Below, piece after piece: positions 49,710 to 63,091 of a stretch of DNA of 64,000 bases (position 1 is its first letter; each line of letters begins with the position of its first letter). The stretch comes from an uncultured Pseudanabaenaceae cyanobacterium. GTDB lineage: Bacteria; Cyanobacteriota; Cyanobacteriia; Pseudanabaenales; Pseudanabaenaceae. The DNA lies in the NCBI GenBank assembly GCA_937927915.1, contig CALGKB010000005.1, positions 62,001 to 126,000 of the forward strand. Reading direction: 5' to 3'. Under the pieces are notes generated by a model. That model did not search any database and had not been told where the DNA came from. It saw nothing but the letters and a program-made list of their open reading frames with translations. The position numbers and the translations under genes are program-made.

Positions 49710-49792
49710 GGGGGTATGGCGGAATGGTAGACGCTACGGACTTAAAATCCGTTGACCGCAAGGTCGTAAGGGTTCAAGTCCCTTTACCCCCA
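49710..49792 (+). tRNA. tRNA-Leu (anticodon TAA), intronless
   Basis: The 83 bases fold as a class II tRNA. The acceptor stem is GGGGGTA/TACCCCC, the anticodon stem CGGA/TCCG with loop CTTAAAA, and there is a long variable arm and a T arm AGGG-TTCAAGT-CCCT. The gene is continuous, with no group I intron between T34 and A35, where many cyanobacteria carry one. It marks the left border of the CRISPR island. Confidence 0.94.
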
Positions 49793-49899
49793 CTCCGGTT
49801 CATTTTATCCCATCTAGTCATCGAGGGCGAAAGTTGTCAGTAAAAGAGGACAAGTGAAAGCTAACCTCCCTACTGCCTCGGAGTCCAACGGAGACAGAT

Positions 49900-49928
49900 T
49901 TTCACCCAAGGGGAAAATAGTGTAGAAT
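49900..49928 (+). promoter_or_regulatory. Candidate promoter directly upstream of the degenerate CRISPR repeat
   Basis: TTTCAC (49900-49905) and TAGAAT (49923-49928) are 17 bases apart, a fair sigma-70 layout. A start about 7 bases past the -10 would be at 49935-49940, immediately in front of the degenerate CRISPR repeat at 49941. A transcript would therefore begin with the repeat-like hairpin and could run on into cas6, 300 bases downstream. Confidence 0.45.
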
Positions 49929-49940
49929 AGGCATTCAGTA

Positions 49941-49967
49941 CCTCAGATACCATCAGGTGTTGAGCAC
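49941..49967 (+). repeat. Degenerate CRISPR repeat upstream of cas6
   Basis: The 27 bases align without gaps with positions 9-35 of the array repeat, with 22 identities. The terminal GTTGAGCAC is exact. In the array repeat the hairpin arms are GCC and GGC around GTAA. Here they read ACC and GGT around ATCA, so the outer pair is changed on both sides and pairing is kept. The first eight bases of the repeat are not conserved. This is what a leading pseudo-repeat of a crRNA-like regulator would retain. Confidence 0.72.
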
Positions 49968-50001
49968 TTTAGCTACTTTGTGCTCAGGTGGGTCAAAGTA
50001 G
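49961..50001 (+). other. Two overlapping hairpins after the degenerate repeat
   Basis: TGAGCAC (49961-49967), which is the end of the degenerate repeat, pairs perfectly with GTGCTCA (49980-49986). The overlapping CTACTTTG (49973-49980) pairs perfectly with CAAAGTAG (49994-50001). The two stems share base 49980 and are interleaved, so they could compete or form a pseudoknot. This supports a structured RNA in the cas6 leader rather than a chance repeat match. The rest of the 445-base gap before cas6 (49793-50237) shows no convincing gene. Confidence 0.55.
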
Positions 50002-50237
50002 AAGCTACAGGGGCTTGGGGAAAGACTTGGCAAAACTCCCCAGCCGTATACCTTTGATGCCGATAGGCGACCAATATACTCCTGTAGCTGCATCTAAAAA
50101 ATTTCCTATGTTTAGATACTTAGTGTTTGACATTTATATCCTTCGACCCTATCATATAGTTACGACCTCAGAAAACCTTTAGGTTCTAAGCATCCTCCAA
50201 CATCTTTTGAGAACTTTTAAGAAAGGTACGGATTTAT

Positions 50238-50870
50238 ATGACACCAAGTACTCAAACTATTGCTTCTACGTCTTTGTCAGAATTGCAGCTCATGGTAGAT
50301 GTTACATTTCCTATAATCAGTGGTAAGGTCATTCCTGCTGACCATGGTTACGCTTTACTCTCATCAATCACAAGATACATCCCCAGCATCAAGGAACACA
50401 CAGATATAAGCATCCTGACTGCTTCAGGCTTGAGGGATGGAACAGGCAAGATAGTACTGGCAGAATACTCTCGTTTCCTTTTTCGTTTGCCCGTCAGTAA
50501 AATTCCCCTGGTTTACAGTTTGGCAGGCGAAACTCTCAAACTAGGTATCCATGCAATTAGGTTAGGTATTCCCAGTATTAATCCCTTGAAAGTTTGTTCC
50601 AAACTGCGCTCACGTATTGTAACTATCAAGGGATACGACCAGCCAGATGCGTTCCTAGAAGCAGTTCGTAGACAGCTAGAAGGATTGACAATTCGAGGAG
50701 AAGTCTCTCTACCCCACAACGCCCGCAAGACAATTAAAATCAAGCGATTTTCTGTAGTAGGCTTTACCGTGGAAGTACGGAACTTGAGTGAAGAAGATTC
50801 CCTAAAATTACAAGCCTACGGCTTAGGCGGTAAAAGGCACATGGGTTGTGGCATTTTCCTGCCATTTTAA
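50238..50870 (+). CDS. cas6: CRISPR RNA endonuclease Cas6, MYXAN-type (Cmx6)
   Basis: The 210-residue protein is a RAMP-fold Cas6: the N-terminal HGYALLSSITRYIPSI and the C-terminal glycine-rich GLGGKRHMGCGIFLPF are typical of the MYXAN Cas6 family. It cuts the CRISPR transcript 3' of the repeat hairpin. It is the first gene of the cas operon, about 300 bases after the pseudo-repeat. cas3 follows 12 bases later. The catalytic residues of Cas6 families vary and I do not assign them. Confidence 0.88.
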   Translation: MTPSTQTIASTSLSELQLMVDVTFPIISGKVIPADHGYALLSSITRYIPSIKEHTDISILTASGLRDGTGKIVLAEYSRFLFRLPVSKIPLVYSLAGETLKLGIHAIRLGIPSINPLKVCSKLRSRIVTIKGYDQPDAFLEAVRRQLEGLTIRGEVSLPHNARKTIKIKRFSVVGFTVEVRNLSEEDSLKLQAYGLGGKRHMGCGIFLPF

Positions 50871-50882
50871 GGAGCGGTAATC

Positions 50883-53291
50883 ATGTTCAAGTATCCTTAT
50901 CCTTATCTATTGGCAAAAACTCTGCCCCCAGACAAACCAAAATATAAAAATCAACGCTGTGGGGCAATTTTTAGAGAGCATATCAACGCCGTAATGAAAT
51001 CGGCTGTGATTATTCTCGATCGCTTGGGAGAGGATTTATACAATCAATTTGGCTTTAAGGATATTTCCCATGACTATTTAAGAAATACAGTGATTTTAGG
51101 GGCATTTTTGCACGACTTGGGTAAATGCAGTGAGCATTTCCAAGAGATGGTCTATCTCAAATCAGATAGCATCACGCCAGAAGATAAACAAAAATTACAG
51201 AAAAAATGGAATGCTCACAGTAAAAAGCAAATGCTCCGCCATGAGGTCATTAGTGCCATTCTTGCCCTTACCCCTGAATTAAGAGGGTGGTTAGAGAATC
51301 CGCAAAAATACTGTCTAATAACTGCTATCTGTTCTGCTATGGGACATCATCTCAAATTAGGAATAGGAATAGATCATAAGCCTAATAGTTTAATCGCTGA
51401 TTTTCCCGATGGCACAGGTAGTGAATTGCGGTTATTTACTCACCATGAGGATTTTCATGAGGTTCTCAAAAGGGGTAAGAAGTATCTCGGTTTATCTGAT
51501 CCCCCTCAGAAATTACCAAAAGAACTGTGGCAGAAAGATGAACTAAAAGAGGCGATCGCTACTTTACAAGATGAATGCTTAGACTTCTCACGGAATTTGA
51601 CGGAAGAACAACGCCGTTTCATTGCTGTGGTCAAAGCATTGGTAATTTCCGCAGACTTAGCAGGTTCAGCCATCCCTGCTGTGAGTGATAATTCTCAACC
51701 CCTGTGGCAGTATTTGGAAAAATGGATTATTGAAGTATTGAATTTAACCCTAACCGAAGATGATTTGCAGAATTTAATCCATCAACGATTAGGTGAGAAG
51801 TCTTTGCGACCTTTTCAAGAGCAAATCGCCAATACACCGACCAGAGTAACTATAGTCAAAGCAGGGTGCGGTACAGGCAAAACGATCGGGGCTTACGCAT
51901 GGGCAAAGCAAAGAGCGATCGGGCGGAAACTATTCTTTTGCTATCCCACCACAGGTACAGCTTCCCAAGGCTACCTAGACTATGCCGCTGAAACGGAAAT
52001 AGAATCAGCACTGATGCACTCCCGCGCTTCCATTGATTTGGAAAAAATTCTCTCCGCTTGTGAAGATGATGATGCCGATGGCATAGACGATCGCTTAGAA
52101 GCCATGACCGCATGGCAAGCCAAGTTGATTGTCTGCACCGTGGATACGGTCCTAGGGCTGGTACAGAATAATCGTAAGCCATTATTTTCTTTTCCTGCGA
52201 TCGCCCAGGGAGCATTTGTTTTTGACGAAGTGCATGCCTTTGATGAGAAGTTATTTGGAGCACTACTCAGATTTTTGCAAACTTTTAGAGGTGCACCTAT
52301 TTTATTGATGAGTGCCAGTTTAAGCCCAGAACAGGAATCATCTATTTGTCGGGTAATTGAGGGCTTAGGAGAAACAGTAAATATTATTCAAGGGGAACAA
52401 AAATTAGAAATTATCCCCCGCTACTCTATGCACTTAGAAACCGACCTAAATCAGATTTGGGAACAGGTACAGAATGCATTAACTAGTAACCAAAAAGTTC
52501 TATGGGTAACTAACACGGTCAAAGATTGTATTTCTATTTATCGTCAAGCAGAAAAATTATTTAGCAATGTGTTTATTTATCACAGCCGCTATCGCTACAA
52601 AGACCGTTTAGAAAAACACAAACAGGTCATAACAGCATTCAAGGGCAATGATTCTTGCTTAGCGGTTACCACCCAAGTATGCGAAATGTCCCTTGATTTG
52701 AGTGCCGATTTACTGATTAGTCAGGTCGCGCCTGCATACGCTCTGATTCAACGCATGGGCAGACTAAATCGCTATGTCTATGAAGATGAACTTGGTCAGA
52801 TTAAGCTAGTATCTGGCAAAATTTGTCCCGCTATCTTTTATCCTAAAGATAAGCCTCTTCCTTATAGCGAAGAAGAAGTTGAAACAGGGCTTTTTTTGAT
52901 TGATCAACTAAAATCTAAACCAGAAATTTCTCAGCAGGATTTAGCCGAAATATCTGCACAGATGCAAGATAAAGCATGGGTGGAAAGTGCCTCGATTTGG
53001 TTAGATAAAACTTGGGAGACTTATCCAAAACCACTTAGGGAAGGAGGATATACAATGACTGTTATAATGGAAAGAGACCTAGAAACGATCAAACAAGTAT
53101 CAGACCAGCGATCGAAGCAGAAAAAGATTCCATTCCCTAAAGCTATGATGCAGGAGATTCAGCGATGGACATTACCAATCAAAGTTATGAAGAATTACAA
53201 AAGTTGGAAGCGATGGAAGTTCTATTATCGTGTACCTGATGAATGTATCAACTATTCTGAAATTACAGGCGGAGAAGAACTATGCAATTAG
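50883..53291 (+). CDS. cas3: CRISPR helicase/nuclease Cas3 (HD and DExH)
   Basis: The 802 residues fuse an HD nuclease and a superfamily 2 helicase. The HD site is AFLHDLGKCSEHF (77-78), with later histidines in MLRHEVISAILAL and MGHHLKLG. The helicase has Walker A GCGTGKTIGAYAW near residue 330, motif II FDEVHAFDEK near 448, motif III MSASLSP and motif VI QRMGRLNRY near 620. All catalytic motifs appear intact. Cas3 is recruited by Cascade to unwind and degrade target DNA. Its last ten bases overlap cas8. Confidence 0.94.
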   Translation: MFKYPYPYLLAKTLPPDKPKYKNQRCGAIFREHINAVMKSAVIILDRLGEDLYNQFGFKDISHDYLRNTVILGAFLHDLGKCSEHFQEMVYLKSDSITPEDKQKLQKKWNAHSKKQMLRHEVISAILALTPELRGWLENPQKYCLITAICSAMGHHLKLGIGIDHKPNSLIADFPDGTGSELRLFTHHEDFHEVLKRGKKYLGLSDPPQKLPKELWQKDELKEAIATLQDECLDFSRNLTEEQRRFIAVVKALVISADLAGSAIPAVSDNSQPLWQYLEKWIIEVLNLTLTEDDLQNLIHQRLGEKSLRPFQEQIANTPTRVTIVKAGCGTGKTIGAYAWAKQRAIGRKLFFCYPTTGTASQGYLDYAAETEIESALMHSRASIDLEKILSACEDDDADGIDDRLEAMTAWQAKLIVCTVDTVLGLVQNNRKPLFSFPAIAQGAFVFDEVHAFDEKLFGALLRFLQTFRGAPILLMSASLSPEQESSICRVIEGLGETVNIIQGEQKLEIIPRYSMHLETDLNQIWEQVQNALTSNQKVLWVTNTVKDCISIYRQAEKLFSNVFIYHSRYRYKDRLEKHKQVITAFKGNDSCLAVTTQVCEMSLDLSADLLISQVAPAYALIQRMGRLNRYVYEDELGQIKLVSGKICPAIFYPKDKPLPYSEEEVETGLFLIDQLKSKPEISQQDLAEISAQMQDKAWVESASIWLDKTWETYPKPLREGGYTMTVIMERDLETIKQVSDQRSKQKKIPFPKAMMQEIQRWTLPIKVMKNYKSWKRWKFYYRVPDECINYSEITGGEELCN

Positions 53292-54907
53292 AACAAATGA
53301 AAAAACATCAAACTGTTTTGAATTACCATCTGGGTGATCCCTATATGACCATGCTTCATCGGGCAGGTTTGGCAGGTCTCTACATGACCCTTGAGCAATT
53401 TGAGAAAGAGAAAATCACTCCCTTTGGTGGCTTCACTTGGCAGAAGAGCGATCGCTCCATTACTCTATCTTGGGAAGGAAACGATCGAGAGGTATTAGAC
53501 TGGTTGCTTAAAGAATCCTTCCAACTGCGAGATGGTCTAATCTATTTCCGAGCATTGGGAGATGTAGATATTCAGCCATTAGTAACTTTGCATCAGGGCA
53601 TACTAGGCTCATTTCTACAACATAACAGCACCCACAAATCCACTGGCAAACAATCTAAAAGTTTCATGCTAGAAGAAGGGAAGCCCGAACTAATCATAGA
53701 GTACAAGGCATTATCGACCTATTCCCATCAGGACTTCACCGAAAAATTATGTGATTCTAAAACAGGAAAATTGCTAGGAAAAACTGTAGCGATCGCTGGT
53801 TGGTTAAGCCCCGGTGCAGTAGTAAAGCACATTGCTTTTTCTGGTCAAACTGCCTTTGAGGAAACTGCCAGTTCTGCATTGTTATTATTATTTGCGCCCA
53901 TTGCTTGTTGTTTTTTTGGATTGCGTTCTAAACTCAAAGAGCAGAAAGCTCAATACGCTCTTGTTATTCCTGAAGTTACTAATTTATCTGACTACAGCTA
54001 CTATCGCAGAGAGTATTTGAACTTGGGCTTTAGAGACTTTTATGCTTCCAGTTTGGGTGATGCAGGCTTGAAGTTTTTAATTAGAGATAGCCTTGTCAAT
54101 AAAACCGGGGGCATTATCCGCAACCTCCGAATCAAAACCTGTCATGTGATTACACTAGGTAGTGTACCTTGGGCAGGGCAACAAAAGACCCGTACTGATG
54201 TTTATACAGTTTCAGCTAACGAAACTATCTGTACCAATTACTATGTTGCCTGTGATCATTTGAGCGATCGAGTGATTGATAAAAAAGACAACAGTTCCAG
54301 TTGGATTGCTCCCAGTTTTGCCAGAGAAATTATTGCCGATAATCTGGCAAGGGGTAAACCATGGTTTGCTGACTTGTCAGCCATAGTCAATAGTGGAACA
54401 CTATTTCAACAACTACTTTATGAAAGGGAGGGACTACACAAAATGATTAAAGATCAACGATTGCAATGGACCGATCAACAACGCTTATTTGTCCAAGCCT
54501 GTCATGAGGCAATTTCCAAAACATATGGTCAGTTATCTAGTAGAAATCAAAAAAATAAGGAAGATTCTACTCAAGACTCAGATATAAAATCTCGTTTTGA
54601 GAAAGTGAATGTGAAGTTTCGCACTGGTTTAGCAAGGTGTAAGAATGCCATTTCATTTCGTGAATTTATTACTAACTTCTGGGCTAAGGCTGGCTATATT
54701 CCTACATTACAAAATCACTGGGAAGAAGTCATGAAGTTAGTAATTAGTGATTGGAGGTCTGCTAGAGACCTAGCTTTGCTTGCTTTAGCAAGTTACAAGG
54801 GCAAGGAGAGTAAGCAACAATCTGATAATTCACCTGAACTTCCCAGTCAAGAAGAAACGCTTAGTAGTATCGGTACGATTGATGATGGATTTGACGAAGA
54901 GGAGTAA
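53282..54907 (+). CDS. cas8a1: Cascade large subunit, Cas8a1/Csx13-like (MYXAN type)
   Basis: The 541-residue protein lies where the Cascade large subunit is expected and begins NYHLGDPYMTMLHRAGLAGLYM, as in the MYXAN Cas8a1/Csx13 family. It likely recognises the PAM and may include an alternatively translated small subunit in its helical C-terminus (from about residue 395, MIKDQRLQWTDQQRLFVQACH). The tail is acidic (DDGFDEEE). Subtype naming is from memory; under newer schemes these systems fall near I-A/I-B. Its start overlaps cas3 by ten bases. Confidence 0.85.
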   Translation: MQLEQMKKHQTVLNYHLGDPYMTMLHRAGLAGLYMTLEQFEKEKITPFGGFTWQKSDRSITLSWEGNDREVLDWLLKESFQLRDGLIYFRALGDVDIQPLVTLHQGILGSFLQHNSTHKSTGKQSKSFMLEEGKPELIIEYKALSTYSHQDFTEKLCDSKTGKLLGKTVAIAGWLSPGAVVKHIAFSGQTAFEETASSALLLLFAPIACCFFGLRSKLKEQKAQYALVIPEVTNLSDYSYYRREYLNLGFRDFYASSLGDAGLKFLIRDSLVNKTGGIIRNLRIKTCHVITLGSVPWAGQQKTRTDVYTVSANETICTNYYVACDHLSDRVIDKKDNSSSWIAPSFAREIIADNLARGKPWFADLSAIVNSGTLFQQLLYEREGLHKMIKDQRLQWTDQQRLFVQACHEAISKTYGQLSSRNQKNKEDSTQDSDIKSRFEKVNVKFRTGLARCKNAISFREFITNFWAKAGYIPTLQNHWEEVMKLVISDWRSARDLALLALASYKGKESKQQSDNSPELPSQEETLSSIGTIDDGFDEEE

Positions 54908-54909
54908 CT

Positions 54910-54984
54910 ATGTATCAGTTTCCAGTAGTCATTGAAAAACATGAAGAGGGATACTATTCCTACTGCTCTGTCTTGGAGGGTTGA
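54910..54984 (+). pseudogene. N-terminal remnant of a HicB-type antitoxin
   Basis: A 24-codon frame reads MYQFPVVIEKHEEGYYSYCS then VLEG and TGA. This is the first strand-turn-strand of HicB (typically MxYxxxVIEKDEDGYYAYCPxLPGC), after which the frame ends exactly where the conserved PGC would occur. It begins two bases after the cas8 stop. No HicA toxin or rest of HicB follows. The downstream bases are repeat-like instead. Confidence 0.65.
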
Positions 54985-54999
54985 GTGATTCCTTTTCAC

Positions 55000-55082
55000 A
55001 TCACTTTCCTCTGATGACCAAATAAGTATTTGATGTGATGCAAGATTAAATTTACCTCAGATGCCCCTAGGCGACAGAACAC
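55000..55082 (+). repeat. Pair of degenerate CRISPR repeats between cas8 and cas7
   Basis: The first copy has CTTTCCTCTGATG at 55004-55016, identical to positions 5-17 of the array repeat, then diverges. The second copy, 55055-55082, reads CCTCAGATGCC, CCT, AGGCG and ends ACAC. It aligns with positions 9-35 with one inserted base and keeps the GCC/GGC stem. Equivalent points of the copies are 47 bases apart, against 70-75 in the array. TCACATCA (54996-55003) and TGATGTGA (55031-55038) also form an 8-bp inverted repeat around the first copy. The 216-base gap has no other gene. Confidence 0.65.
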
Positions 55083-55124
55083 AACTAACTTTCAATTCAA
55101 TTGCAACTTTACAGGAGAGAAATT

Positions 55125-56048
55125 ATGAGTTGGCATCTTTTTGGTAACATTTTGACCAGCTACGGCACTGCTGCTAACAATCGCGGTGAGAACGAAGGAA
55201 ATATCACCACCTTGCAGAAAATCCTTTGGCAGGGTGAGGTGCATTCCACTGTATCCGCCGAAGCAATTCGCTGGGCACTGCGCTACTACTGGCAGACCTG
55301 CGGACACTATGAAGTTAATCGCAGATGGAATGATTTCATTAACGATAATGAGTGGCAGAATGAAAATTTTGATGACACCCAATACATTGATGATGATGTT
55401 TTGGGGTTCATGCGGGCTGAGGCGGCAAAAGCTGAAGCCAATGATGAGGAAGAGCCTGCCGATGGCAAGAAGAAAAAGAAATCTCCTCCCAAGGGAACTG
55501 CCACAGTCAAGCGGGGTGTATTAGAAGTAACTCGTGCTATTTCTACTACTCCTTTTGCTGGGGATATTACTTTCAATGCCGCGAGTGGAGCAAAGGGTAG
55601 AACTTCTCTTTATGGTGCGGAAGTACACGCAACCCGCTATCAGTATGGCTTTGCCCTCACACCCAATCGTCTAAAAGTTCAATCCAGAATCCATGCTGTT
55701 CTTGATGGTTTAACATCCCTAGGAAAAGTAGGTGGGAATCACTCCCGCTTCTTATATGATTTTGCGCCTGATAGTATTATTCTGCGTTGGACACACGACT
55801 TTGCTCCCAGAATTCTCTATTGCTTTGTAGAGGAAGATGGCATGATTTCAGTTCCCGATCTGCTGAGAAGAATTGAGGCAGAAGACATTGATCCTCAAGA
55901 GCTATGGGTGGCTGGGGCAATTACCAACACTGACGATGGAGAAGAGTTAAAGGCAAGGGGTGTAAATCTCTTTGCAGGAATTAAAGAAGCTGTAACTGAT
56001 CTGAAGGCTAAAATCAATGAAGACCTTAATTTGAACCTAGAGGAGTAA
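55125..56048 (+). CDS. cas7: Cascade backbone subunit Cas7 (DevR/Cst2-like, MYXAN type)
   Basis: The ATG at 55125 (MSWHLFGNILTSYG) has AGGAGAG six bases upstream and gives 307 residues; the ATG-less extension upstream is rejected. It is a RAMP-type protein of the DevR family, with the N-terminal GENEGNITTLQKIL, SAEAIRWALRYYW and later GRTSLYGAEVHATRYQYGF. Several copies coat the crRNA. A charged, probably disordered loop at residues 98-127 contains EEEPADGKKKKKSPPKG. The gene lies between two toxin-antitoxin remnants. Confidence 0.9.
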   Translation: MSWHLFGNILTSYGTAANNRGENEGNITTLQKILWQGEVHSTVSAEAIRWALRYYWQTCGHYEVNRRWNDFINDNEWQNENFDDTQYIDDDVLGFMRAEAAKAEANDEEEPADGKKKKKSPPKGTATVKRGVLEVTRAISTTPFAGDITFNAASGAKGRTSLYGAEVHATRYQYGFALTPNRLKVQSRIHAVLDGLTSLGKVGGNHSRFLYDFAPDSIILRWTHDFAPRILYCFVEEDGMISVPDLLRRIEAEDIDPQELWVAGAITNTDDGEELKARGVNLFAGIKEAVTDLKAKINEDLNLNLEE

Positions 56049-56050
56049 TT

Positions 56051-56275
56051 ATGGAACTACTACCGCAACTCTTGAAAAACATTCAACTGCTAATGGAAAA
56101 AATTAAGGCATTTTACGATCGCTGGCAGATTACAGAATTTGTTCTCTTTAGTTCAGTATTGCAGGATGATTTTCGTCCTGATAGCGATATTGGTGTGTTG
56201 TATGTATTTGACAATAATGCCAAACACAGATTGTTTGATTTAGTCGCCATGAAAGAAGAACTAGAAAGTCTGTAA
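56051..56275 (+). pseudogene. MntA-like nucleotidyltransferase antitoxin, truncated and mutated
   Basis: The 74 residues match the start of MntA-type minimal nucleotidyltransferases: EFVLFSSVLQDDFRPDSDIG, where active members have FGSxxxxxFxxxSDID. The glycine of the GS motif has become serine and the second metal-binding aspartate glycine, so catalysis is unlikely. It ends after MKEELESL, well short of the family length. It starts two bases after the cas7 stop and runs directly into a HepT remnant in a different frame, as if an internal deletion joined antitoxin and toxin. Confidence 0.75.
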
Positions 56276-56280
56276 CTAGG

Positions 56281-56502
56281 CGACTGGAGATTTTGGGGGA
56301 AGCAGCGCGGCGGATTTCTGATAAAGCTCGTTCGGAAATCCCCGAAATTCCTTACTAGAAAATGATTGGCATGAGGAATGTACTTGTTCATCAATACTAT
56401 GAGATTGACTTGAATATTGTTTGGGATGTAATTCATCAAGAATTACCGAAATTATCATCTAGTCTTGAAAAAGAAATTGCTAGGAGGAAACTAAACCAAT
56501 GA
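56281..56502 (+). pseudogene. HepT-like HEPN toxin remnant with in-frame amber
   Basis: The frame reads RLEILGEAARRISDKAR, EIPEIPY, a TAG at 56356-56358, then KMIGMRNVLVHQYYEIDL and NIVWDVIHQEL to a TGA that overlaps the cas5 start (ATGA). This is the C-terminal two-thirds of a HepT (DUF86) HEPN protein. The RNase motif Rx4H (RNVLVH) is intact. The N-terminal helices are missing, and the amber falls where a tryptophan is usual. No active toxin would be made without suppression or internal initiation. Confidence 0.78.
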
Positions 56503-57122
56503 GTAAACTCTTTCCCTTATTAGTGGAAGTACCGATCGCTTGTTTTCGGCAGTCCCATGCCCGTGAATACGCAGAAACTTATCCTGTACCACCCCCTGCT
56601 ACAGTGTATGGCATGCTTTTATCTTGCGTGGGCGAAGTGAATCGTTATCAACATATTGGTGTAAAGTTAGCGATCGCTATGCTTTCTAGTCCTACTAAAT
56701 CTACTGTGATTAGAACTTTTCGCAGATTCAAGAAAAGAGAGATCAGCGACCCCACCAATGCCCGTCCCGACTTTCAAGAATTACTCACGGATACTAGGTT
56801 CATAGTGTGTGTTGATTCCAGTCAAGAGAAAAATTCACCAACTTTGCAGGAACGTCTAGAGAATGCTTTTACCCATCCAGAAACGATCGATCGATTTGGC
56901 GGATTATGCTTGGGAGAAAGTCGGGATTTAGTAAACTCAATTCAGAGATTTACTATTTCAACAGATGAGTATTATGAATGGCTCACCCAAGACCCAGATG
57001 GACTGCTAACATTGCCTTACTGGGTGGATCATGTAGGTTCTAGAGGGACGAAATGGCAAAGATATAGACTGGAACTGTCTAGTTTGAATCCCAGGGTATG
57101 GACACAAATTAAAACTGACTAA
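56499..57122 (+). CDS. cas5: Cascade subunit Cas5 (DevS, MYXAN type)
   Basis: The 207-residue RAMP protein begins LFPLLVEVPIACFRQSHAREYAETYPVPPPATVYGMLLSCVGE, matching the Cas5/DevS family that caps the 5' handle of the crRNA. IRTFRRFKK and RFGGLCLGESRDLV follow. Its ATG overlaps the stop of the HepT remnant by four bases, so translation once coupled to the toxin frame. The adaptation gene follows 33-72 bases later depending on its start. Confidence 0.9.
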   Translation: MSKLFPLLVEVPIACFRQSHAREYAETYPVPPPATVYGMLLSCVGEVNRYQHIGVKLAIAMLSSPTKSTVIRTFRRFKKREISDPTNARPDFQELLTDTRFIVCVDSSQEKNSPTLQERLENAFTHPETIDRFGGLCLGESRDLVNSIQRFTISTDEYYEWLTQDPDGLLTLPYWVDHVGSRGTKWQRYRLELSSLNPRVWTQIKTD

Positions 57123-57194
57123 TTTCTAGTTTGTTGAACTCTGCTGACGTCACAGATGGTTTATCCTTTGCTAACAATGCTTGAGGGAAATTGT

Positions 57195-58856
57195 ATGGTT
57201 TGCCTAACTTCATCTTCGCTTGATCTTGATACTATTCGTGTATCTTCTCTCCATGCTCTTGCTTATTGTGAACGGCTCTTCTTCTTAGAAGAGGTAGAAG
57301 AACTCTATACCCAGGATGCAGCTGTCTTTGCAGGTAGAAGACTCCATGTGCAAATTGGAAAGCAGGAAGGGGAAGAATATGAAGAACTTTTCTTGGAAAG
57401 CTCTGAACTTGGTTTAAGGGGCAAAGTTGATGTTCTTCGTACAATCAAAGGAGAATTAATTCCCTACGAACACAAACGGGGTAAGCCAGCTAGAGATGAC
57501 TCAAACAAACCAATTCCCTGGGATAGCGATCGGTTGCAAATTCTAGCATATGCCTACTTGATTGAATCTGCTCTAGAGCAAAAGGTAAGGGAAGGACGCA
57601 TTCGTTACCATGCCGATAATGTTTTGGTAAAGGTTCCGTTTGATGATAGTGGTAGAGAGGAAGTAAGACAGGCAATTCACAGGGCACGGGAGTTACGCAA
57701 GTCTCTCTTTCGTCCTCCTGTAACTTCCAATGAGCGTCTGTGTCTACGATGTTCTCTTGCTCCTGTGTGTCTGCCAGAGGAAGCCCGCCTAACACATAAC
57801 CGAGAGTGGCAACCTGTACGTCTTTTCCCTGAAGATGACAATCGTAGGATTATTCATATACTTGAACCTGGTACAAAAGTGGGCAAAGCAGGGGAACAAA
57901 TCAAGATTACGCAGCCAGAGGGTTTGACCGAGTTAGTGCCTTCCCAAGAGGTTTCTCAGATTGTACTGCATGGTTTTGTGCAGATTTCTACCCAAGCAGT
58001 TCATAGTTTGGTTGATAAAGAGATAGGTATCCATTTTATTTCTAGTGGGGGCAGGTATGTTGGTAGTTTGGATACTAGGAGCGGTAGTATTCAGAGACGG
58101 ATTCGTCAGTATCAGGCTCTCTCTGACCCAGACTTTTGCCTGTCTTTAGCTAAAAGACTTGTGTTTTGTCGGGCTGAGGGACAACGTAAGTTCTTAATGC
58201 GGGGTAGAAGAAACAAAACTACTTCCTTTGCCTGTCTTGATGAGTGTATAGACCAAATGCGTGATGTTATACAAAAAATTGATAGAGCAGATAAAATTGA
58301 CTCTCTGTTGGGCTATGAAGGAAATTTAGCAGCACTGTATTTCAAGGGGCTTTCTCATCTCCTTGTAGAACAAACAGACCCAGAAATGCACTTTGACGGT
58401 CGCAACCGTCGCCCCCCGACGGATAGGTTTAATGCTCTTCTGAGCTTTGGCTATACTCTCTTACTAAAAGATATGGTCAACGCAATCTTAGTTGTGGGGC
58501 TTGAACCTGCTTTGGGCTTTTATCACCAACCTCGCACTCAGGCTCCACCTCTTGCCCTTGACTTAATGGAAATTTTTCGTGTTCCTCTAGTAGACATGAT
58601 CGTCATATCTTCTATCAATCGCCAACAGTGGCATGTAAAGGAAGATTTTGAGGTAAGGGGAAATCAAGTGTGGCTAAGTGATGCAGGAAAGAGAAAGTTT
58701 GTCGCTTTGTATGAGAAACGCAAGGAAGAGTCTTGGAAACATCCTATCTTGGGATATTCTCTGACCTATCGGCGCTTGATGGAATTGGAGGTGCAGTTGC
58801 TGGAAAAAGAATGGAGCGGAGAAACTGGTTTATTCGCAAATCTTATCCTGAGGTAA
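57195..58856 (+). CDS. cas4-cas1: Cas4-Cas1 fusion protein (spacer acquisition)
   Basis: The ATG at 57195 is chosen for GAGGGA six bases upstream; an in-frame ATG at 57156 would add 13 residues. The N-terminal third is Cas4. It has iron-sulfur cysteines in AYCERLFFLEE and CLRCSLAPVC, and RecB-type nuclease motifs GKVDVL, IPYEHKRGKPA and DRLQILAYAYL. The rest is the Cas1 integrase with metal ligands in GYEGNLAALYF, GFYHQPRTQ and LALDLMEIFR. Fusion of Cas4 to Cas1 is typical of MYXAN and I-G type loci. Both active sites look complete, and the array's identical repeats fit an adaptation-competent locus. Confidence 0.93.
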   Translation: MVCLTSSSLDLDTIRVSSLHALAYCERLFFLEEVEELYTQDAAVFAGRRLHVQIGKQEGEEYEELFLESSELGLRGKVDVLRTIKGELIPYEHKRGKPARDDSNKPIPWDSDRLQILAYAYLIESALEQKVREGRIRYHADNVLVKVPFDDSGREEVRQAIHRARELRKSLFRPPVTSNERLCLRCSLAPVCLPEEARLTHNREWQPVRLFPEDDNRRIIHILEPGTKVGKAGEQIKITQPEGLTELVPSQEVSQIVLHGFVQISTQAVHSLVDKEIGIHFISSGGRYVGSLDTRSGSIQRRIRQYQALSDPDFCLSLAKRLVFCRAEGQRKFLMRGRRNKTTSFACLDECIDQMRDVIQKIDRADKIDSLLGYEGNLAALYFKGLSHLLVEQTDPEMHFDGRNRRPPTDRFNALLSFGYTLLLKDMVNAILVVGLEPALGFYHQPRTQAPPLALDLMEIFRVPLVDMIVISSINRQQWHVKEDFEVRGNQVWLSDAGKRKFVALYEKRKEESWKHPILGYSLTYRRLMELEVQLLEKEWSGETGLFANLILR

Positions 58857-58860
58857 CAGT

Positions 58861-59154
58861 ATGGCGGAGTCAAGAAACTTTTATCTGATTTGTTATGATA
58901 TTCGGGAGCCGAAACGGTGGCGTAAAGCTTACAAGTTGTTACAAGGCTACGGCGATAGACTGCAATACTCTGTTTTTCGTTGCTTGCTAACTGTACGCCA
59001 TCGGGAAAAGCTGCGTTGGGAACTAGAAAAAATTCTCACCCCAGAGGACAGCTTGTTGATTGCTGGTCTGTGCGATCGGTGCGTGCAAAGGGTAGTTGCC
59101 TGCAATCGTCCAGAATCTTGGTCAACACTGCCATCTGGTTACCAAATTTTTTAG
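58861..59154 (+). CDS. cas2: Cas2 endoribonuclease-fold adaptation protein
   Basis: The 97-residue protein shows the Cas2 pattern: NFYLICYDIREPKRWRKAYKLL with the conserved aspartate, then YGDRLQYSVFRCLL, and the basic C-terminal strand. It forms the core of the Cas1-Cas2 integrase. It starts four bases after cas4-cas1 and is the last cas gene before the array. Confidence 0.94.
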   Translation: MAESRNFYLICYDIREPKRWRKAYKLLQGYGDRLQYSVFRCLLTVRHREKLRWELEKILTPEDSLLIAGLCDRCVQRVVACNRPESWSTLPSGYQIF

Positions 59155-59398: not shown

Positions 59399-60505
59399 GT
59401 TGCTTTCCTCTGATGCCGTAAGGCGTTGAGCACTCTTATCAAAGCTGCCCCCAGAAGCACGCTACGCTGTGTTGCTTTCCTCTGATGCCGTAAGGCGTTG
59501 AGCACAGGGAGACGCTCCTGAAAACACTAGTGCCCCCTCGGGGGGTTGCTTTCCTCTGATGCCGTAAGGCGTTGAGCACGAGAGTGATCTCGTACGGAGG
59601 CTCCCTTTGGATTACACGAGTTGCTTTCCTCTGATGCCGTAAGGCGTTGAGCACACCCTCGAATGGGGGGGGAACCAGTATCTCGGTGTAGGTTGCTTTC
59701 CTCTGATGCCGTAAGGCGTTGAGCACGCATTCGATCCCTCCATCAATACTAGGTTTGTAGACGGTTGCTTTCCTCTGATGCCGTAAGGCGTTGAGCACGC
59801 ATTCGATCCCTCCATCAATACTAGGTTTGTAGACGGTTGCTTTCCTCTGATGCCGTAAGGCGTTGAGCACAATAACAGAGGTTCACACTGTTAGCTAAGG
59901 AGGAAGGTTGCTTTCCTCTGATGCCGTAAGGCGTTGAGCACTACCCCTCTACAGGGTCGAGTTCCCGATCGGTGAGGGTTGCTTTCCTCTGATGCCGTAA
60001 GGCGTTGAGCACTAACTGGGCAATAAATCTCAGGGCGTGGTACTTCTGTTGCTTTCCTCTGATGCCGTAAGGCGTTGAGCACGCGACTGGGGGTCTAATG
60101 CCCGTTCTAACGTTGTGGGTTGCTTTCCTCTGATGCCGTAAGGCGTTGAGCACTTGGATAGGTGTCTACAATAGGTGATGACAACTTAGTTGCTTTCCTC
60201 TGATGCCGTAAGGCGTTGAGCACGAATTGTTGGATTTTCTCTCTGATACTGCCCATTATGTTGCTTTCCTCTGATGCCGTAAGGCGTTGAGCACGAATTG
60301 TTGGATTTTCTCTCTGATACTGCCCATTATGTTGCTTTCCTCTGATGCCGTAAGGCGTTGAGCACTTGCAGTGGAAGTAGGAGATGAAACTGTTATATTT
60401 GTTGCTTTCCTCTGATGCCGTAAGGCGTTGAGCACACCCAGAATCTGCGGTTTCCTGTTTCGTCTTGCGAGTTGCTTTCCTCTGATGCCGTAAGGCGTTG
60501 AGCAC
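59399..60505. CRISPR. CRISPR array, 16 identical 35-nt repeats and 15 spacers
   Basis: The repeat starts GTTGCTTTCCTCTGATGCC and ends GTAAGGCGTTGAGCAC, with a GCC/GGC hairpin. All 16 copies are identical (first at 59399-59433, last at 60471-60505). Spacers are 35-40 bases: 37, 39, 40, 37, 37, 37, 36, 36, 35, 36, 35, 36, 36, 35 and 35 from left to right. Spacers 5 and 6 (59727, 59799) are identical to each other, as are spacers 12 and 13 (60224, 60295). Direction is not certain. Leader position and the pseudo-repeat promoter favour the plus strand; the minus-strand repeat end AAAGCAAC also resembles many known handles. Confidence 0.97.
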
Positions 60506-61597: not shown

Positions 61598-63091
61598 TTA
61601 TTCCCGAATCCATTCTGGAATTGCTTCTTCTTTGGTGTTGGTGCGGCGTTCCAGGGTCTGGCGCTCAAACCGCATATGAATCGATCGGGTCTGCACACCA
61701 TCAGCCGCCACTGCCAAAATGGGATAGTCAATTACCCCGTCTTGGAAAGACATATGGTGACGGAAGGTACCATCGGGGTTGAGTTCAATGCGCTGACCAC
61801 CGATCGTGACTGTTGCATCGGGTTCTGTTGCGCCATAGACAATGAGTTCAGCATCAGCTACTAGCCAGAATTGCCGTGGGCGTTGAGGCACAGCCGCCGA
61901 GAACAGACCCATACCAGAGAGGGTTAAAAGTCCGAGACCAGAGGCAGTGAGATAACCTACCCCCGATGCGCTGTAGAGACCAAGTCCCGACATAGAGAGG
62001 AAGCCCAAACCGCTGGCAGTCAGTTGCAGGGAACCAGGTACACCCAAGCCTACCCCTGACATAGAGAACTGGACAGAACCAGGTACACGGGTCTCAAAAC
62101 CTACCCCCGACATGGACAGTTGGACAGAGCCTGGTACACGGGTTTCCATGCCCACACCCGACATAGACAGTTGCACTGAGCCTGGTACTGCTAACCCTAC
62201 CCCACTGGCAGTGAGCTGGACGGAACCAGGTACTTCCATACCCACACCAGACATATGCACAGAGCCAGGTACAGCAAAAGAACTGACGGCGCTTTCTGCC
62301 ATTTGCATAGAGCCGAAGACAGAACCAGGTTGTCTTTGCTCCAATACTGTCGTTGCCTCAGCAGTGGGACGGGCACCTGTGCGCTGTTTGGGCATGAGAG
62401 TAAAGAAGGTACGCCCAATCAGGGTTTGCTCCCAGGGAATGGAGAGGAAATAGTCTTCCGTCCAGTCGGTGGGATAGACAGGGGGCACATGGATAGCTGC
62501 CGATCGGGCTAGCATTAGCCAGCGACCATCACTGGTGCGATAGCCAATTTCCACCACATAACTCCGATCGCTCATGGGAATCGGCAAGTACCACTCCCGC
62601 GCCATTTCATCACAGGCATATTCCTGGACGGTGTGGGGCATTTGGTAATCCAGGTTGATGTCCGTGACATCGTAAATGCGGAGGGCTAGTTGTTGTCCCC
62701 CTTGGCGGCGGCAGGCTTCCTTGGCACTGTCGGGAATGTCCCAGTAGGCATAAGCCCATTGGGGGTCACGGGGTAAAAGGACAATACGGGGTTCACCATA
62801 ACCCTCAGGGAGGTCTCCCAAATTCCAATCCACCATTGCCAGCTCCGTTGCTTCTGCTACTACTGCACCGCTGGCTTGCCCTAATTCAAATTTTTTTGCT
62901 TCCACTGTCTCTCTCTCTTCTCCAGGTTGGGGTTCATGTTTGCGGACGAGATCACCAAGCTTCGCTGCCTGAATAGCCTTGAGTAGTTGGGACTTCCGCA
63001 TACGGCTGTAGCGGGAAATCGCATACTCGGAAGCTATCTTCCGCAACTGGCGCAAGGTCATCTCTTCCAAGGGTGGGCGTTCTTGAGCCAT
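61598..63091 (-). CDS. DUF4912 protein with Rho-N/SAP-like domain and tandem peptide repeats
   Basis: The 497 residues have an N-terminal SAP/Rho-N-like helical domain (about 8-50, MTLRQLRKIASEYAISRYSRMRKSQLL). A DUF4912 region follows (about 95-235, RIVLLPRDPQWAYAYWDIPD, VEIGYRTSDGRWLMLARS). A repeat tract (about 265-400) has units like VPGSVQLSMSGVGMETR and LTASGLGLLTLSGMG. A C-terminal beta domain (about 410-480, LIVYGATEPDATVTIGGQ) closes it. Members occur widely in cyanobacteria; function is unknown and may involve the envelope or nucleoid. The repeat units are 13-17 residues, glycine- and serine-rich, with probable beta character. Confidence 0.85.
   Translation of the reverse strand: MAQERPPLEEMTLRQLRKIASEYAISRYSRMRKSQLLKAIQAAKLGDLVRKHEPQPGEERETVEAKKFELGQASGAVVAEATELAMVDWNLGDLPEGYGEPRIVLLPRDPQWAYAYWDIPDSAKEACRRQGGQQLALRIYDVTDINLDYQMPHTVQEYACDEMAREWYLPIPMSDRSYVVEIGYRTSDGRWLMLARSAAIHVPPVYPTDWTEDYFLSIPWEQTLIGRTFFTLMPKQRTGARPTAEATTVLEQRQPGSVFGSMQMAESAVSSFAVPGSVHMSGVGMEVPGSVQLTASGVGLAVPGSVQLSMSGVGMETRVPGSVQLSMSGVGFETRVPGSVQFSMSGVGLGVPGSLQLTASGLGFLSMSGLGLYSASGVGYLTASGLGLLTLSGMGLFSAAVPQRPRQFWLVADAELIVYGATEPDATVTIGGQRIELNPDGTFRHHMSFQDGVIDYPILAVAADGVQTRSIHMRFERQTLERRTNTKEEAIPEWIRE

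Follow-up and report, generated by a model that had tools for sequence, protein, structure and literature searches.

What is a degenerate CRISPR repeat doing in the leader of a cas6 operon, well apart from the array, and if it is a working part of the locus, what would it act upon? The stretch of DNA analysed here (64,000 nucleotides, termed the window) is part of a 2.4-Mb cyanobacterial genome and contains a complete type I-MYXAN (I-B) operon (50238-59154), ordered cas6-cas3-cas8a1/Cmx1-cas7-cas5-cas4/1-cas2 and followed by a 16-repeat array. CreRs are mini-CRISPR regulatory RNAs that mediate autorepression in types I-B, I-E and V-A via partial complementarity to the promoter (PMC12737573; PMC13131331; PMC12948488), and CreR autorepression is a known mechanism in these types. 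Judged from its sequence, the interval upstream of cas6 is very probably a CreR-type gene, in which a two-repeat pseudo-CRISPR is predicted to autorepress the cas6 operon.

Two degenerate repeats upstream of cas6

The features of the leader and operon are as follows.

49899..49928, + strand: predicted pseudo-crRNA promoter, TTTTCA-18-TAGAAT, equivalently TTTCAC-17-TAGAAT
49933..49967, + strand: psiR1, degenerate CRISPR repeat, 25/35 identities to the array repeat, intact 8-nt 5' handle TTGAGCAC at 49960-49967
50043..50077, + strand: psiR2, second degenerate repeat, 21/35 identities (core 17/19), hairpin kept, handle degraded
50165..50193, + strand: psiR3, repeat-like hairpin in the cas6 5' UTR, handle degraded
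50238..50870, + strand: cas6 (I-MYXAN, Cmx6; TIGR02807, 208 bits), first operon gene, predicted to be repressed
50883..59154, + strand: remainder of the operon (cas3, cas8a1/Cmx1, cas7, cas5, cas4-cas1, cas2)
59399..60505, + strand: CRISPR array, 16 identical 35-nt repeats, spacers of 35-40 nt

Apart from the array, sites that differ from the 35-nt repeat at no more than 14 positions occur on the two strands of the window only at psiR1 (10 mismatches) and psiR2 (14), both of which lie within 310 nt of cas6. By sequence alone psiR1 is marginal, its 25/35 identities equalling the best of 60 shuffled windows, and it is supported by its location, by a match of the Rfam CRISPR-repeat model RF01343 to 49931-49967 (23.7 bits, below the gathering threshold, E 0.012) and by stem covariation. 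In relatives the psiR1 stem is paired in 91 of 99 cells, above permuted arms (p 0.0004, distinct arm pairs), with off-register controls pairing in 31-33 of 99. The psiR1 loop is often expanded in relatives (total length 27-57 nt), which is why ungapped repeat scans miss many copies; a handle-based search recovers them. With repeats at 25/35 and 21/35 and a spacer of 75 nt, the element does not qualify as a canonical CRISPR array.

The original prediction had described a promoter followed by a single degenerate repeat, and its account of the local sequence proved accurate. TTTCAC (49900-49905) and TAGAAT (49923-49928) are separated by a 17-nt spacer, and 12 bases further on comes a 27-mer (49941-49967) that shares 22/27 positions with the array repeat, with the terminal GTTGAGCAC intact and the stem arms altered from GCC/GGC to ACC/GGT so that pairing is kept. 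Two interleaved perfect inverted repeats are also present (49961-49967/49980-49986 and 49973-49980/49994-50001), and the covarying stems that were to be sought in related MYXAN loci were found. Regarding the extent of the element, psiR1 stood, but psiR2, psiR3 and the guide-target match had been overlooked, and the true element is larger, with a long pseudo-spacer. The -35 box of the predicted pseudo-crRNA promoter is weak, yet the pair outscored 200/200 local shuffles, and promoter-like scores upstream of psiR1 are raised over 33 loci, a figure inflated by relatedness. A perfect 9-nt inverted repeat (AGCTACAGG/CCTGTAGCT, 50003-50011/50081-50089) encloses psiR2 and contributes to the fold predicted for the CreR precursor.

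A guide matching the cas6 promoter and its recurrence in relatives

If the element is a CreR, its guide should be complementary to the cas promoter, and such a guide was found.

49968..50042, + strand: pseudo-spacer, 75 nt (67 nt in most same-class relatives)
49968..49984, + strand: guide segment matching the cas6 promoter, 14/15 read positions
50108..50110, + strand: PAM-like ATG
50111..50127, + strand: target (protospacer) of the predicted pseudo-crRNA
50127..50155, + strand: predicted cas6 operon promoter, TTGACA-17-TATCAT, 11/12 to consensus, best promoter of the leader

Directly after the psiR1 handle, TTTAGCTACTTTGTGCTC matches TTTAGATACTTAGTGTTT at 50111, beside the ATG, and the target extends to the TTGACA -35 box of the cas6 promoter. 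This match supports the autoregulatory pseudo-crRNA that had been proposed for the interval. Within the first 18 nt, guide and target mismatch at positions 6, 12, 16 and 18. In the related I-B Cascade of Synechocystis PCC 6714 every Cas7 accommodates 5+1 nucleotides, the sixth being flipped out, and AYG is the preferred PAM (PMC11096372). Of the mismatches, those at 6, 12 and 18 are at flipped-out positions of a Cascade guide, and the target match is imperfect at position 16. A genome-wide search for ATG followed by the first 13 read positions, allowing at most two mismatches, gave the cas6 promoter as the sole site. Comparison of the window array and two large arrays of relatives with phage records gave no usable protospacers from which to read a PAM. 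The pseudo-spacer is twice the normal length and can form hairpins pairing part of the guide or handle; in relatives its 3' half gives a modest, weak consensus hairpin of five pairs, two of them with compensatory changes.

Relatives were collected as loci of the same Cas6 family from approximately 660 cyanobacterial genomes and a few named contigs, and were classed by operon content. Guide-target pairs were scored over 15 guide positions with the PAM ignored, a score of at least 12 upstream of cas6 being termed strong, and the wide scan was filtered of masked N runs and array self-matches. The element, with a co-evolving guide and target, is present in about 30 related cyanobacterial loci. At least 12/15 upstream of cas6 was reached in 26 loci, whose guides form 12 sequence clusters, and all 26 targets are flanked by ATG with the PAM unscored. 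When a handle plus ATG was demanded, 21/23 loci with the same effector were positive against 0.75 expected from shuffles, as were 12/22 Cmx8-type loci (0.55 expected) and 3/21 loci with other Cas8 types (0.4 expected). CAST-like loci lacking cas3 gave 4/24 (1.5 expected), all with handles two bases off. The two same-effector negatives comprise one locus (L032) scoring 10/15 with ATG and another (L122) in which both repeats are present and a target was not recognised. No CreR was seen in 10 acidobacterial MYXAN genomes.

At 26 unique sites anchored only by ATG and positions 1-5, mismatches fell at position 6 in 20/26, position 12 in 18/26 and position 18 in 22/26, with positions 7-11 mismatched in only 6/130 cells. 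Over 18 homologous loci the guide scores 12.56/14 against its own target and 8.55/14 against the targets of other loci, and none of 10,000 permutations, which ignore relatedness, reached the observed total. This co-evolution of guide and target is a stronger test than stem covariation and lends further support to the CreR reading. The evolutionary pattern alone thereby points to ATG as the likely PAM, to the unread guide positions and to a short pairing being sufficient for promoter binding. The PAM is located at +3 to +8 from the predicted transcription start in 18/31 loci and upstream of it in the others (-54 here), where a complex bound to the target would overlie the -35 box; we infer that RNA polymerase would be blocked in either placement.

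CRISPR arrays returned by a search of plasmids led to the I-MYXAN locus that Synechocystis PCC 6714 has on its plasmid pSYLB. This locus carries the same element, with guide ATAAGTGCGGTATCGG and target ATG-ATAAGAGTGGTATCGG matching at 14/15. Given that the structure of the PCC 6714 Cascade has been solved and its PAM preference measured (PMC11096372), the mechanism is directly testable in this strain.

Predicted autorepression and rival explanations

In the predicted mechanism, the pseudo-crRNA would be transcribed from the promoter at 49899-49928, and Cas6 cleavage at psiR1 and psiR2 would leave an RNA resembling a crRNA, its 5' handle intact. Loaded with this RNA, the I-MYXAN (I-B) Cascade would be guided to ATG-TTTAGATACTTAGTG (50108-50125), at the -35 box of the promoter predicted for the cas6 operon. 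The short pairing (about 17 nt, with every sixth base unread) would allow binding and the blocking of RNA polymerase, and is presumably too little to license Cas3. In this way free Cascade would repress its own operon, and array crRNAs or anti-CRISPR proteins occupying Cascade would relieve the repression. On the sequence evidence, the defence system most likely turns itself down with its own machinery.

Repeats and guide of this kind are also found in CRISPR-repressed toxin modules (CreTA/CrePA), in which a toxin RNA or small toxin protein encoded between the promoter and cas6 would be repressed by the guide, so that the cell becomes addicted to Cascade. The guide and repeat architecture is common to CreA (PMC8501985), and in some relatives, although not in the window, the space between the target and cas6 is occupied by a small ORF or by hicBA. 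In the window, however, the predicted start lies only about 76 nt from cas6, no ATG-initiated small ORF was seen there by inspection, and the predicted promoter reads straight into cas6. With the leader running directly into cas6 and no toxin seen, this reading is decidedly unlikely and was rejected. A similarly slim chance is given to feedback at the level of RNA only, where Cas6 would bind or cut repeat-like hairpins in the cas6 leader and DNA targeting would be absent. Here psiR3 is the relevant feature: it shares ACCTCAGA with psiR1, and a hairpin of this kind is present in the cas6 5' UTR of many same-class loci. The psiR3 match in the window is weak (15/27, p 0.083) and its hairpin is absent from the predicted fold; it is stronger in relatives, reaching p<=0.017 in 16/23 same-class loci. 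Feedback through RNA alone nevertheless leaves the co-evolving guide-target pair, the ATG flank and the 6-nt mismatch period unexplained, and psiR1 and psiR2 both precede the predicted cas promoter. It is more likely that psiR3 represents a possible second layer than the sole mechanism, and such a Cas6-dependent second feedback layer is put forward purely as a hypothesis.

Decay of a mini-array in the cas leader into a functionless relic would fit the degeneracy of the repeats, since ectopic repeats are generally degenerate (PMC9458426), and a relic-like orphan repeat exists elsewhere in the genome. This explanation was rejected as very unlikely, because guide-target co-evolution, psiR1 stem covariation and the uniform ATG flank require selection and the strong guides fall into separate clusters. 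The tRNA-Leu gene at 49710-49793 raised the further possibility of a private homing guide of a CRISPR-associated transposon, since some CASTs use tRNA genes for attachment. Among solved structures, the nearest Cas8 comes from an I-B Cascade that was deposited together with a transposon system and that we take to be from a CAST. I-B Cascade chains of PDB 8fcj are related to Cas8, Cas7 and Cas6 of the window, and Cas7 is also related to 8h67. Against the transposon reading, the operon has cas3 and cas4-cas1-cas2, whereas a CAST would have a Cascade lacking cas3 and cas1/cas2 within a Tn7-like element; the sole ATG-flanked genomic match of the guide is the cas6 promoter rather than a tRNA-type attachment site, and CAST-like loci are without the element beyond chance. 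Contradicted by both operon content and guide target, the transposon reading was rejected and has next to no probability.

Relation to known regulatory CRISPR RNAs

The element thus has the sequence-level defining features of CreRs, namely degenerate repeats beside a cas operon and outside the array (psiR1 and psiR2) and a guide, placed like a spacer, that in part complements the promoter of its own cas operon beside a PAM (ATG plus 14/15, 50108-50127). Its function is predicted to be CreR-like, which would entail a mature crRNA-like RNA produced by the Cas processing enzyme and an effector-dependent repression of cas that crRNAs or anti-CRISPRs relieve. In common with CreRs of types I-B, I-E and V-A, it is a mini-CRISPR of degenerate repeats beside a cas operon with partial complementarity to the cas promoter, and Cascade-dependent autorepression would be expected. 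The distinctive traits were set against the CreR descriptions cited above: here the loci are cyanobacterial and I-MYXAN, most same-class loci have a pseudo-spacer of 67 nt (75 nt in the window), the psiR1 loop is often expanded and a repeat-like hairpin is present in the cas6 leader of many relatives. No literature report of a CreR in cyanobacterial I-MYXAN loci was found; the original CreR paper lay beyond the search, so priority is uncertain. With strong evolutionary evidence, RNA-guided cas autorepression would be extended to a cyanobacterial group that includes Synechocystis PCC 6714.

The CreA RNAs of CreTA likewise possess two divergent degenerate repeats, with the psiR1 handle kept and a PAM beside the target (PMC8501985; PMC9458426), and in one case pair at positions 1-5 and 7-11 (PMC8501985), as does the element described here. 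In contrast to CreA, the target here is the cas6 promoter rather than a toxin gene, no toxin was seen, and psiR2 keeps its hairpin and loses its handle. Cas9 scaRNA and tracr-L also represent repurposed CRISPR-type RNAs that guide an effector to repress transcription through short pairing (PMC9458426; PMC8616872), but are Class 2, Cas9-based and of unrelated architecture.

In Myxococcus xanthus, DevTRS, the MYXAN prototype, represses its own operon by an unexplained mechanism, and its Cas8-Cas7-Cas5 proteins are related to those described here. DevTRS differs in that neither Cas3 nor Cas6 activity is reported to be needed and no guide is known (PMC8616872). The shared autorepression invites comparison, and the reported independence from Cas6 and Cas3 activity cautions against assuming it. 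The element offers a concrete candidate mechanism for the negative autoregulation of the dev operon, the founding MYXAN system. A broader proposal, that cyanobacterial I-MYXAN loci have two-layer self-control, consisting of a CreR with a long, possibly structured pseudo-spacer and psiR3-based Cas6 feedback, and that such guide logic could also explain DevTRS autoregulation, is possible though rather doubtful.

Several further observations were made at these loci. Small ORFs occur between the CreR target and cas6 in L130 (NZ_CP007544.1, 5364-6063), L031 and L121, and a hicBA pair is located there in PCC 6714. The small proteins encoded in L031, L121 and L130 resemble one another by eye, and may be carried along in operons under CreR control or be additional, CrePA-like targets within them. 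Two more small-ORF families, also assigned by eye, occupy this gap in L043, L050, L051 and L120, and in L101, L103 and L106. Between cas7 and cas5 of the window, about 450 nt (56049-56498) hold no recognised gene, a gap that exceeds that of most relatives and is single copy in the genome. Two array spacers each occur twice, duplicated in tandem with their repeats (59691-59870 and 60189-60365), i.e. as recent array duplications. The gene for a DUF4912/Rho_N-domain protein (ORF 61598-63091, minus strand) contains a 51-bp tandem repeat at 62049-62188. On another contig, a solitary near-perfect array repeat (32/35, minus strand, contig 137583-137609; L151, G000:C9:135500-139800) adjoins a short ORF resembling part of the regulator gene that some relatives carry upstream of cas6, and seems to be what is left of a second CRISPR locus.
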